Source: Lysobacter stagni
GTDB taxonomy: Bacteria; Pseudomonadota; Gammaproteobacteria; Xanthomonadales; Xanthomonadaceae
DNA length: 64,000 bases
Assembly: GCF_030053425.1 (NCBI RefSeq)
Contig: NZ_JASGBI010000001.1
Coordinates: forward strand, 3,232,001 to 3,296,000
Direction of reading: 5' to 3'
The notes beneath the pieces are model-generated. The model was not told the DNA's origin and did no database searches. It saw nothing but the letters and a program-made list of their open reading frames with translations. The number at the start of each line of letters is the position of its first letter. Positions within the stretch are counted from its first letter, which is position 1. The translations under genes and the position numbers were made by a program. Positions 2,828 to 5,881 of the stretch are shown piece by piece.

Positions 2828-4114
2828 ATGACCGACCTGTATTCCGATTCCTACGCACAGACCCAGGATGCCGCCGACCCGTTGCGTGCATACCGCGATG
2901 AATTCCTGATCCCGCGCCACGACGGCGTCGAACAGGCCTACTTCGTCGGCAACTCGCTGGGCCTGCAACCGCGCGGTGCGCGCGCGCACGTCGAGGAAGT
3001 GCTTTCCAAGTGGGCGGCCGAAGCGGTGGAAGGCCACTTCACCGGGCAGGCGCAGTGGCTGGACTACCACGACCTCGTGCGCGATTCGCTGGCGCGCCTC
3101 GTCGGCGCCAAGCCGCTCGAAGTGGTGGCGATGAACACGCTCACGGTGAACCTGCACCTGATGATGGTGAGCTTCTACCGCCCCACGCGCGAGCGTCCCG
3201 CGATCCTGATCGAGGCCGGCGCGTTCCCGTCGGACCGCTACGCGGTGGAGTCGCAGGTTTCCTTCCACGGCTTCGATCCTGACGTCGACCTGATCGAACT
3301 CCAGCCAGATCAGGCCGACGGCACCACGTCGATGGAGGCGATCGCACGCGCCATCGCCGAGCACGGCCCGCGACTGGCGCTGGTGCTGTGGCCCGGCGTG
3401 CAGTACCGCACCGGCCAGGCATTCGACCTGCCCCGCATCGCCAGCCTCGCGCATGCGCAGGGCGCGGTGTGCGGCTTCGACCTCGCGCACGGCGTCGGCA
3501 ATCTCGATCTCGCGCTGCACGACAGCGGCGTCGACTTCGCCGTGTGGTGCCACTACAAGTACCTCAACAGCGGGCCGGGCGCGGTCGCGGGCTGCTTCGT
3601 GCACGAGCGTCACGCGCACAGCGACCGCCCCCGCTTCGCTGGCTGGTGGGGCCACGACCAGTCCACGCGTTTCCGCATGGGTCCACACTTCGTGCCCACG
3701 CCCGGCGCCGATGGCTGGCAGCTGAGCAACCCGCCCATCCTCGGCATGGCGCCGCTGCGCGCCTCGCTGGAGCTGTTCGACCGCGCTGGCATGCCGGCGT
3801 TGCGCGAGAAGTCCCGCAAGCTCACCGGCTATCTGGAGACGCTGATCCAGCAGCGCCTGGCCGGCACGCTGCAGATCGTCACTCCTGCCGATCCGAACCA
3901 GCGCGGCTGCCAGCTTTCACTGCGCGTGATCGGCGGCCGCGGCCTCACCGGTCGTGACGCCGGACGCGCCCTGTTCGATTACCTCGCCACGCAGGGTGTG
4001 CTGGGCGACTGGCGCGAACCGGATGTGATCCGAATCTCCCCCGCTCCGCTCTACAACACCCACGCCGATGTGTTGCGTTTCGTGCGGGCGGTGGAGGCGT
4101 GGCGGGATGCATAA
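2828..4114 (+). CDS. kynU: Kynureninase
   Basis: PLP-dependent hydrolase that splits kynurenine or 3-hydroxykynurenine into (3-hydroxy)anthranilate and alanine. The 428-residue length is that of bacterial/eukaryotic KynU. The N-terminal GNSLGL signature is at 41-46, and the aldimine lysine is K244 in CHYKYLNSGPG. The cofactor-ring Asp is in the GFDLAHGVGN stretch (about 216-225). Paired with the monooxygenase downstream, it produces the 3-hydroxyanthranilate that the dioxygenase upstream consumes. Its TAA stop lies only four bases before a REP-like palindrome, which is where the otherwise tight operon is broken by the GIY-YIG insert. Confidence 0.96.
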   Translation: MTDLYSDSYAQTQDAADPLRAYRDEFLIPRHDGVEQAYFVGNSLGLQPRGARAHVEEVLSKWAAEAVEGHFTGQAQWLDYHDLVRDSLARLVGAKPLEVVAMNTLTVNLHLMMVSFYRPTRERPAILIEAGAFPSDRYAVESQVSFHGFDPDVDLIELQPDQADGTTSMEAIARAIAEHGPRLALVLWPGVQYRTGQAFDLPRIASLAHAQGAVCGFDLAHGVGNLDLALHDSGVDFAVWCHYKYLNSGPGAVAGCFVHERHAHSDRPRFAGWWGHDQSTRFRMGPHFVPTPGADGWQLSNPPILGMAPLRASLELFDRAGMPALREKSRKLTGYLETLIQQRLAGTLQIVTPADPNQRGCQLSLRVIGGRGLTGRDAGRALFDYLATQGVLGDWREPDVIRISPAPLYNTHADVLRFVRAVEAWRDA

Positions 4115-4118
4115 AGCC

Positions 4119-4144
4119 GTCATTCCCGCGAAGGCGGGAATCCA
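4119..4144 (+). repeat. REP-like palindrome, left copy flanking the GIY-YIG gene
   Basis: A 26-base element of the form GTC-ATTCCCGC-GAAG-GCGGGAAT-CCA. It has an 8-bp perfect stem (4122-4129 with 4134-4141) and a GAAG loop, directly after the kynU stop. It belongs to the common proteobacterial REP type whose translations read VIPAKAGIQ or SFPRRRES. It matches the inverted copy at 4472-4497 at 24 of 26 positions, and the two differences are a compensatory base-pair change in the stem. By eye I find no further copy in the window. Confidence 0.9.
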
Positions 4145-4170
4145 AGGTTCAGATGCATCAAGGACGAACC

Positions 4171-4467
4171 ATGCAGAAGCAACCGGCGGTCTACATGCTG
4201 GCGAGCAGCCGCAATGGAACGATCTACATCGGCGTCACGAGCAACTTGCTGGGTCGTACATGGCAACACCGCGAGCATCTGGTCGATGGCTTCAGCAAGT
4301 TCCATGACGTAACGCGACTCGTCTGGTATGAACAGTGTGACGACATGGCTTCTGCCATCGAACGTGAGAAGCAACTCAAGAAGTGGAACCGGGCATGGAA
4401 GATCCGGTTGATCGAGGAACGTAATCCGGAGTGGATCGACCTTTGGCCCGGCCTTGTCGGCCGCTGA
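4171..4467 (+). CDS. GIY-YIG nuclease-domain protein, REP-flanked
   Basis: A 98-residue single-domain GIY-YIG (URI/UvrC-N type) protein. The GIY-like VYM occurs near residue 7-9 and YIGVTSN near 19-25, followed by the conserved Arg/His region (GRTWQHREH), a Glu in the SAIEREKQLKKWNR helix, and NPEW near the C terminus. Members are predicted metal-dependent nucleases, usually solitary and of unknown biological role. The ATG is chosen because AAGGA lies six bases upstream; longer reading frames would translate the REP element. Base composition is visibly lower in GC than kynU and kmo on either side, and inverted REP-like palindromes bracket it. It therefore looks like an inserted cassette rather than a pathway gene. 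Confidence 0.9.
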   Translation: MQKQPAVYMLASSRNGTIYIGVTSNLLGRTWQHREHLVDGFSKFHDVTRLVWYEQCDDMASAIEREKQLKKWNRAWKIRLIEERNPEWIDLWPGLVGR

Positions 4468-4471
4468 CAGT

Positions 4472-4497
4472 TGGATCCCCGCCTTCGCGGGGATGAC
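4472..4497 (-). repeat. REP-like palindrome, right (inverted) copy flanking the GIY-YIG gene
   Basis: Read on the minus strand it is GTC-ATCCCCGC-GAAG-GCGGGGAT-CCA. It is the same element as the left copy but with a C:G pair replacing the T:A pair at one stem position, so the hairpin is kept. It starts five bases after the GIY-YIG stop and ends four bases before the kmo ribosome binding site (AGGGA at 4501-4505). It thus lies exactly between the insert and the resumed kynurenine operon. Confidence 0.9.
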
Positions 4498-4513
4498 AGC
4501 AGGGAACGATGAA

Positions 4514-5881
4514 GTGACCCAACCTGACAACCGCCACATCACCCTCATCGGCGCCGGCCTTGCCGGCGCAGTGCTTGCCACGCTGCTGGTACGACGCGGT
4601 TGGCGCGTGGACGTGTACGAGAAGCGTGGCGACCCGCGGGTTCAGGGCTATGGCGGCGGACGCTCGATCAACCTGGCGCTGGCCGAGCGCGGCCGCCACG
4701 CCCTGCGCCTGGCCGGCGCTGATGAGGCGGTCATGCAGCATGCGGTGATGATGCGCGGGCGCATGGTGCACTTTCTCGACGGCCGCACCGACCTGCAACG
4801 CTACGGCCGCGACGACAGCGAAGTGATCTGGTCGGTGCATCGTGGCGAGCTCAACGTGATCCTGCTCGACATCGCCGAGCGTGCCGGCGCGAAGCTGCAT
4901 TTCGACCGGGGCCTGTCCGGTGTCGACTTCGACGCGCGCACCGCCCGCTTCACCGATCCACGCGACGGCAGCACGCACGAGGCGCGCTTCGAATCGCTGG
5001 TCGGTGCGGACGGAGCCGGTTCCTCGTTGCGCGCGGCGATGAGCGCGCACGTCGAACTCGGCGAGCGCACGGAGTTCCTTGGCCATTCCTACAAGGAGCT
5101 CGAAATACCGCCGGCCGCCGACGGCAGCTTCAGCATCGAACCCAATGCCCTGCACATCTGGCCGCGCGGCCGTTACATGTGCATCGCGCTGCCCAACGAT
5201 GAACGCACCTTCACCGTCACGCTGTTCCTGCCCAACGAGGGCGACCCCAGCTTCGCCACGGTGCGCAATGGCGAGGATGCGCGCGCCCTGTTCGAACGCG
5301 ACTTCGCCGACGCGGTGCCGTTGATCCCTGCGCTGGAAGAGGATTTCGAGCGCAATCCGGCGGGCCTTCTGGCCACGCTGTATCTGGACCGCTGGCACCT
5401 GGACGGCCGCGCCGTGCTGCTCGGCGATGCCGCGCACGCGATGGTGCCTTTCCACGGCCAGGGCATGAACTGCGCGTTCGAGGATTGCGTGGCGCTGGCC
5501 GAGCACCTGGACGCGAACCCCGATCGCGCTGCCGCGTTCGCCGCGTTCCAGGCCGAACGCCTTCCCAATGCGCGCGCGATCCAGGCCATGGCGCTGGAGA
5601 ACTACCTTGAAATGCGCGATCGCGTCGACGACGACGATTACCTGCTGCAACGCGCACTGGAACGCACGCTGGCGCAGCGCCACCCGGAGCGCTTCATGCC
5701 GCGCTATTCGATGGTGACCTTCCAGCGCATGCCCTATGCGACGGCATACGAGCGTGGCCGCCAGCAGCGCGAGCTGCTGATCGACTTGACGCGCGGCCAC
5801 ACCAGCCTGGATACGCTGGACTGGTCCGCGGTGGACCACGCCGTGCGTGAACGTCTGACGCTCTTGCCGATGGATGCCTGA
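4514..5881 (+). CDS. kmo: Kynurenine 3-monooxygenase
   Basis: FAD- and NADPH-dependent hydroxylase giving 3-hydroxykynurenine. The 455-residue protein has the Rossmann FAD motif GAGLAG (13-18) and an Arg-rich substrate/flavin loop (GGGRSINLALAERG). It also has the DG motif (VGADGAGSSLR) and the second FAD motif GDAAHAMVPFHGQGMN near 306-322. A GTG start is chosen: AGGGA lies eight bases upstream, whereas the in-frame ATGs at 4454 and 4493 would translate the GIY-YIG tail or the REP palindrome. The gene overlaps sbcB by eight bases. With kynU it forms the upper part of the pathway whose lower enzymes lie upstream. Confidence 0.93.
   Translation: MTQPDNRHITLIGAGLAGAVLATLLVRRGWRVDVYEKRGDPRVQGYGGGRSINLALAERGRHALRLAGADEAVMQHAVMMRGRMVHFLDGRTDLQRYGRDDSEVIWSVHRGELNVILLDIAERAGAKLHFDRGLSGVDFDARTARFTDPRDGSTHEARFESLVGADGAGSSLRAAMSAHVELGERTEFLGHSYKELEIPPAADGSFSIEPNALHIWPRGRYMCIALPNDERTFTVTLFLPNEGDPSFATVRNGEDARALFERDFADAVPLIPALEEDFERNPAGLLATLYLDRWHLDGRAVLLGDAAHAMVPFHGQGMNCAFEDCVALAEHLDANPDRAAAFAAFQAERLPNARAIQAMALENYLEMRDRVDDDDYLLQRALERTLAQRHPERFMPRYSMVTFQRMPYATAYERGRQQRELLIDLTRGHTSLDTLDWSAVDHAVRERLTLLPMDA

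Follow-up and report, generated by a model that had tools for sequence, protein, structure and literature searches.

How does the gene of a small GIY-YIG nuclease come to lie between two inverted REP-type palindromes at the junction of kynU and kmo, and do the enzyme and the palindromes belong together? The question arises from the window analysed here, a 64-kb stretch of Lysobacter stagni DNA, in which an earlier note had seen a cassette delivered into the junction and had proposed either a GIY-YIG-driven REP element or a nuclease that recognises REP hairpins. We have therefore examined the locus, its relatives and the repeats themselves.

Architecture of the locus

The kynureninase gene kynU (2828..4114, + strand; KYNU_C 1.5e-24, Aminotran_5 6.6e-12) and the downstream host gene (4514..5881, + strand; FAD_binding_3 5.5e-27), named kmo for kynurenine 3-monooxygenase from its position and FAD-binding domain, enclose a 381-nt REP–GIY-YIG–REP cassette (4118..4498, + strand), whose presence, scarring and absence were compared within the genus. 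All three genes are on one strand. Both REPs fold into hairpins: an 8-bp stem closes a 4-nt loop, the head (CGTC or TGTC) points outward and the tail is CCA. The left REP (4118..4144, + strand) carries a CGTC head and is followed by a subterminal stretch, AGGTTCAGA (4145..4153, + strand), which is similar to the inner margin of the right REP and to that of some of the REPs elsewhere in the genome; the right REP (4472..4498, − strand) is inverted. Across 37 nt, the arms 4116-4152 and 4464-4500 are 84% complementary, and arms that are alike beyond the REP proper are also found in loci L035 and L036.

The enclosed gene (4171..4467, + strand), separated by 26 nt from the left REP and by 4 nt from the right one, encodes 98 amino acids with a Pfam GIY-YIG match at E 3.8e-16 (59.6 bits, cut-off 22.6). 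The Pfam match and the complementary arms thus confirm the earlier description of a 98-residue GIY-YIG gene bracketed by an inverted REP-like pair. The insert is indeed lower in GC than its surroundings, with 57.6% for the cassette against 67.3% for the window, a value equally low in 18 of 1988 same-size windows. The remark that kynU and kmo lie only a few bases apart does not always hold in relatives, since in their cassette-free junctions kmo starts anywhere from a slight overlap with kynU to about 250 nt past it.

The GIY-YIG protein

The GIY-YIG domain of the window protein has kept the Tyr, Arg, Glu and Asn positions that we take to be catalytic: among 23 aligned relatives, Y8, E66 and N85 are invariant, and Y19 and R29 nearly so. 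The gene is under purifying selection, with dN/dS values of 0.08–0.13 among the four copies of the genus, five of whose six pairs have a dS close to or exceeding 1; the G004 copy contains one in-frame stop. The only solved chains matched by sequence at E ≤0.01 were PDB 1zg2 and 1ywl (1.4e-5 and 0.0071), which belong to the UPF0213 proteins; these are likewise single-domain GIY-YIG proteins, but distant from the window protein. A profile built from 23 relatives (A1) was used in the genome and named-locus searches. It matched at E ≤0.001 in 148 of the 299 genomes of the phylum, and the named loci used below are the best 80 of 584.

REP copies across the genome

The REP pattern has two matches in the window, where 0.16 would be expected, in agreement with the earlier count of only two copies in 64 kb; the genome, however, holds 86 (40 + 46, ≤3 mismatches), and a reversed control pattern gave none. 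From these, 58 copies form 29 inverted pairs (+ then −) within less than 1 kb. The starts are 54–79 nt apart in 28 of the pairs, and the remaining pair, at 352 nt, is the one that encloses the GIY-YIG gene. When up to 5 mismatches are allowed, two further wide pairs appear, with starts 157 and 574 nt apart, of which the 574-nt pair looks non-coding.

These repeats, with an unpaired CGTC/TGTC head, a stem of 8 or 9 bp, a loop of 4–5 nt, a CCA-like tail and a predominance of head-to-head dimers (the 58 of 86 copies in pairs), correspond in every one of these traits to the CGTC REP superfamily, to which the main text of Di Nocera et al. 2013 (PMC3733652) gives a CGTC or TGTC head, an 8-bp stem, a 4-nt loop, a CCA tail and head-to-head dimers, and in which it includes dRS3 of Neisseria. 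That main text describes REPs as mostly intergenic, reports no dedicated transposase for the CGTC REPs beyond a few associations with transposase genes that it regards as fortuitous, and does not contain the string 'GIY'; here a GIY-YIG gene lies between the REPs. RepRanger (PMC12306157), which cites Di Nocera et al., contains no word beginning with nuclease or transposase in the text available to us. A literature search gave, among the matches listed, no paper tying GIY-YIG nucleases to REP-type repeats or RAYTs. The Y1 HUH transposase domain (PF01797) has no match in the whole genome; thus no RAYT was found, and a RAYT as REP mobiliser in this genome was set aside on that ground.

The two copies in the window differ by a compensatory change, a T-A pair in one and a C-G pair in the right one, as had been claimed. 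Genome-wide, 43 copies match the degenerate pattern without a mismatch, and every one of them is paired at this position (27 T-A and 16 C-G, with no mixed pair). Because they may descend from two subfamilies, the 43 paired copies are not 43 independent events.

A second class of dimers, about 125 nt long, was seen in G000 (C1:129588-129688, 766480-766580 and 2226409-2226509), one REP of which ends GGGGTCTTC instead of GGAATCCA; a repeat GTTACTTTTG..CAAAAGTAAC lies close to several of these dimers.

Inverted REPs around GIY-YIG genes

In the arm test, the upstream flank is aligned to the reverse complement of the downstream flank, and a score of ≥18 counts as positive. Inverted arms were found at 45 of 76 testable named loci (best 80 of 584, four being too short) as compared with 2 of 713 shifted windows, which leaves 31 of the 76 below the threshold. 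A second set of 60 loci from 23 genomes, mostly multi-copy, gave 46 of 59 (one left out) against 4 of 232. Among the relatives, own locus and genus orthologues included, 12 of 30 loci had arms against 1 of 236 shifted windows; in this set the windows were 170–200 nt, the orientation of L041, L053 and L054 was misread, a distant REP at L042 was missed, L048 was truncated and about seven loci were remote or fragments. The three sets overlap slightly, with L044 and L089 sharing the same arms.

Within the same named loci (62 of the best 80 of 584, 18 being left out of this and the hairpin-motif test), 39 of 62 GIY-YIG genes had inverted arms, compared with 5 of 190 other ORFs (Fisher 4e-24). REP flanking is therefore far commoner around GIY-YIG genes than around other genes, the comparison to which the earlier note had tied its reading. 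Hairpins with outward heads on both sides, sought by a motif for which the two arms need not be alike, were present at 42 of these 62 loci versus 2 of 372 windows; the other two sets gave 24 of 57 (three of 60 left out) and 15 of 23. The opposite arrangement, with heads pointing inward on both sides, occurred at 17 of 62, 6 of 57 and 1 of 23, respectively. By record title, the armed loci come from Nitrospira (L094), Planctomycetes (L101), Neisseria gonorrhoeae (L099), Methylomonas (L078) and Afipia (L131), among others, many of these records being metagenome bins, which may be mislabelled.

REP type and abundance in relation to the protein

Two GTC-headed arms could be read in 74 of 121 candidate loci. 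Over these 74 loci, the distance between proteins correlates with the distance between REPs (Mantel r 0.641, 0 of 2000 permutations). The REP cores of L254, L255, L257 and L258 had been misread, and after removal of the five rows within L254-L260 the correlation was still 0.599 (69 loci, 0 of 1000). It was 0.374 when no two proteins were closer than 0.30 (39 loci, 0 of 1000) and 0.356 with the GC difference partialled out (39 named loci from the best 80 of 584, 2 of 2000). In the 69 loci, the REP distance between same-genome paralogues (0.382) is no smaller than that for any pair (0.331), and to the nearest protein in another genome it is 0.179; part of this last nearness may reflect orthology. 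By these correlations and distances, it is the protein and not the host with which REP type goes.

REP numbers were compared across 299 genomes, own genome included, of which 94 are REP-positive and 81 have a GIY-YIG match at E ≤1e-15. At least 10 CGTC REPs were present in 30 of the 81 genomes with such a strong match and in 11 of the 218 without (Fisher 3e-11), the link giving p ~3e-4 when permuted within 16 families and the same direction at all four thresholds tried (1, 5, 10 and 20). REP abundance thus tracks the GIY-YIG gene, with exceptions both ways: 32 of the 81 gene-bearing genomes have no REP by the pattern used, which covers only some stem forms, and G074, G175 and G269 are rich in REPs (158, 120 and 57) without a strong match. 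Cassette REP types vary in how far they are dispersed: within 400 kb, the three types of G283 had 18, 9 and 0 copies and the three of G237 had 4, 2 and 0, the reversed controls giving 0.

History of the kynU-kmo junction

Of 12 genomes of the genus, four have the cassette between kynU and kmo, three retain all or part of one REP and five have no REP, so the gene is not at the same place in all relatives. Two REP-free genomes, G005 and G011, are nested within an occupied or scarred clade (support 100/99, tree of kynU and upstream DNA), and loss of the cassette in this pair is therefore likely, repeated gain being the alternative. In the family, the junction could be read in 30 of 58 genomes, and five (own genome included) have the cassette or a gene remnant, including two with a frameshift and one that is largely deleted. 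L038 and L073 are two more such kynU-kmo loci outside the genus. In a DNA tree of 36 rows, the nine kynU-kmo copies fall inside one group of 17 rows without being monophyletic, well-supported branches requiring at least two changes, and the four genus copies form one clade (100/99). The copies of the genus thus look vertical, and on the evidence of these trees the cassette at kynU-kmo is old, not fresh; the single clade of four species and the nested REP-free pair lead us to reject a fresh insertion.

The earlier note was accordingly right about the association of gene and REPs and about their patchy presence, but not about a recent delivery, given the single clade, the same junction being occupied in other genera and the scars elsewhere in the genus. 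Its search for insert-free junctions that would give exact boundaries and a target-site duplication yielded neither a duplication nor a nucleotide-exact empty site in the junctions compared, and for this reason we treat the GIY-YIG-driven REP element as a hypothesis. Its other proposal, a nuclease recognising REP hairpins, has indirect support from the covariation of protein and REP. At the kynU-kmo junction of G365 (L193), all that two REPs surround is a piece from the late part of the nuclease gene, an internally deleted cassette.

Loss and dispersal at other sites

Among Sphingobium megaplasmids with the corresponding region, the gene is covered by seven records, in one of which (TYG73) it is frameshifted, and four others have both flanks but lack the gene. 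TYG74 and TYG64 have one fused, double-headed hairpin made up of the outer halves of both REPs, and these scars look like deletions between stem repeats; TYG72 and TYG65 lack the fused hairpin and have other hairpins at the site. None of the four can thus serve as a true empty site, and a candidate in Shinella was set aside as its alignment is too divergent for placing the ends. Sphingobium megaplasmids also differ in a CTGAGC..TGTCGAAG repeat that is similar to the GTTCGCCCTGAGCTTGTCGAAGGGC arms of L215 described below: MM7A and TYG74 (L278, L280) carry it as an inverted pair, which is missing at the same junction from MM15 and TYG46 (L279, L281).

When about 400 kb each from G000 and G003 were compared, the two genomes had the GIY-YIG cassette and one REP dimer in common. 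For two dimers and a single REP seen in G000, and for three units seen in G003, the counterpart junction of the other genome is free of REPs; at one junction REPs are present in both and are possibly the same. Most single units in this comparison (≤6 mismatches) resemble chance matches inside genes, and divergence is too high for exact ends or duplications at the dimer boundaries.

A probable two-part unit and its alternatives

We consider it probable that a minimal single-domain GIY-YIG nuclease and its own CGTC-headed REPs, which it would recognise, form a two-part unit, the GIY-YIG counterpart of the RAYT REPtron. The pairing of nuclease and REP is well supported by the comparisons above. 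Since REP type covaries with the protein, recognition of its own REPs by the nuclease is predicted and would be the simplest explanation of the covariation; the enzyme would bind and cleave them and may also mobilise them. In such a unit, as in the cassette seen here, one REP lies inverted at each end of the gene with its head outward. When the strand is single, as in lagging-strand synthesis, repair or transforming DNA, the REP would fold; the nuclease would then bind the hairpin and the CGTC head and nick there, and the break would be repaired from another copy, or the bounded piece would move. The short dimers may derive from the unit and be non-autonomous, in the way that REPINs derive from RAYTs. 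RAYT REPtrons and REPINs resemble the present system in that a nuclease gene is flanked by inverted REPs of the type belonging to it, in their dispersed short dimers and in their enzyme-specific REP types; they differ in their Y1 HUH transposase and GTAG head, where we find GIY-YIG, no PF01797 match and a CGTC head, and mobility here is putative.

Several results count against the two-part unit: the vertical-looking genus copies, the deletion-like Sphingobium scars and the lack of an exact empty site or target duplication; the 32 of 81 REP-less gene-bearing genomes, the REP-rich genomes G074, G175 and G269 without a strong match, the 31 of 76 loci below threshold and the 17 of 62 head-inward pairs (both from the best 80 of 584); the six cassette REP types in 400 kb, of which two had no copy and one had two; and the hydrolytic chemistry, for GIY-YIG enzymes hydrolyse DNA and are not known to have a strand-transfer step.

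Alternatively, the nuclease may serve its host, cutting REPs as marker sites on single-stranded DNA and so limiting uptake or recombination, with the pairing kept by selection and not by mobility. Ssn in Neisseria reportedly acts in this way on repeat sites; these site-specific GIY-YIG nucleases, reported in Nature Communications in 2025 with many homologues, reportedly cut single-stranded DNA at a repeated Neisseria sequence and would already link small GIY-YIG nucleases to repeated genomic sequence. The resemblance lies in a small GIY-YIG nuclease with a repeat and a Neisseria member, and the present genome likewise has a many-copy repeat going with the nuclease (86 copies, with own-type REPs around the gene). 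A dN/dS of ~0.1, the old residence at kynU-kmo and a relative in Neisseria gonorrhoeae that has CGTC REPs, the class that includes dRS3, in its vicinity all favour a host function, which we regard as a serious if rather doubtful contender. Against it stand the patchy presence with scars at one site, paralogues with different REP types in one genome, and the finding that two related species have REP dimers at junctions that do not coincide.

The nuclease gene might instead be a guest, a homing-type gene that enters the spacer of existing dimers as its recognition sites and spreads no REPs. The GIY-YIG fold is classically associated with homing enzymes, the heads point outward in cassette and dimers alike, and the inner edges of the cassette resemble those of part of the genome's REPs. 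Such a guest is nevertheless unlikely, since REP types differ between paralogues of one genome and follow the protein, and two of six cassette REP types have no other copy in 400 kb. The window protein had no match at E 1e-5 in 50,697 phage records, and a phage-borne homing gene was rejected on that count, which speaks only against a phage carrier. That REPs simply collect in intergenic gaps, where they mostly lie according to the main text of Di Nocera et al. 2013 (PMC3733652), and that a gene happens to stand between two of them would fit the 5 of 190 other ORFs at the arm threshold. Chance or hitchhiking of this kind is nonetheless highly improbable in view of the 39 of 62 GIY-YIG genes in the same loci (best 80 of 584), set against other ORFs irrespective of size, and of the covariation between REP and protein.

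Returning to the two-part unit, CGTC REPs are present in species of several phyla, and the covarying nuclease is a testable candidate partner for them; many nuclease–hairpin pairs with differing REP types are on offer. A bolder reading, to which we would give a little under an even chance, is that the CGTC REP superfamily has its missing mobilising enzyme in this GIY-YIG subfamily, which would make up a second, independently evolved class of REPtron. The same reading, held just as tentatively in this part, would have a hydrolytic nuclease and not an HUH transposase spread hairpin repeats, with a separate REP family driven by each paralogue. If the nuclease does move REPs, the spread of REPs would have arisen twice, with unrelated enzymes.

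Other inverted ends around GIY-YIG genes

Loci L254-L260 (G194, G092, G108 and G088) contain GIY-YIG genes with long, elaborate inverted ends, TTCGTCATTCTAGGGCGGAGCAAGGAGCGAAG..., which in several of them are nearly identical on both sides. Two copies of this type in G194 are 91% alike across 738 nt, which suggests duplication within that genome. A more distant GIY-YIG gene (E 1.7e-14) at L215 (G162:C1:490382-492603) has inverted arms of the type GTTCGCCCTGAGCTTGTCGAAGGGC, and therefore another repeat class may have a GIY-YIG partner of its own.
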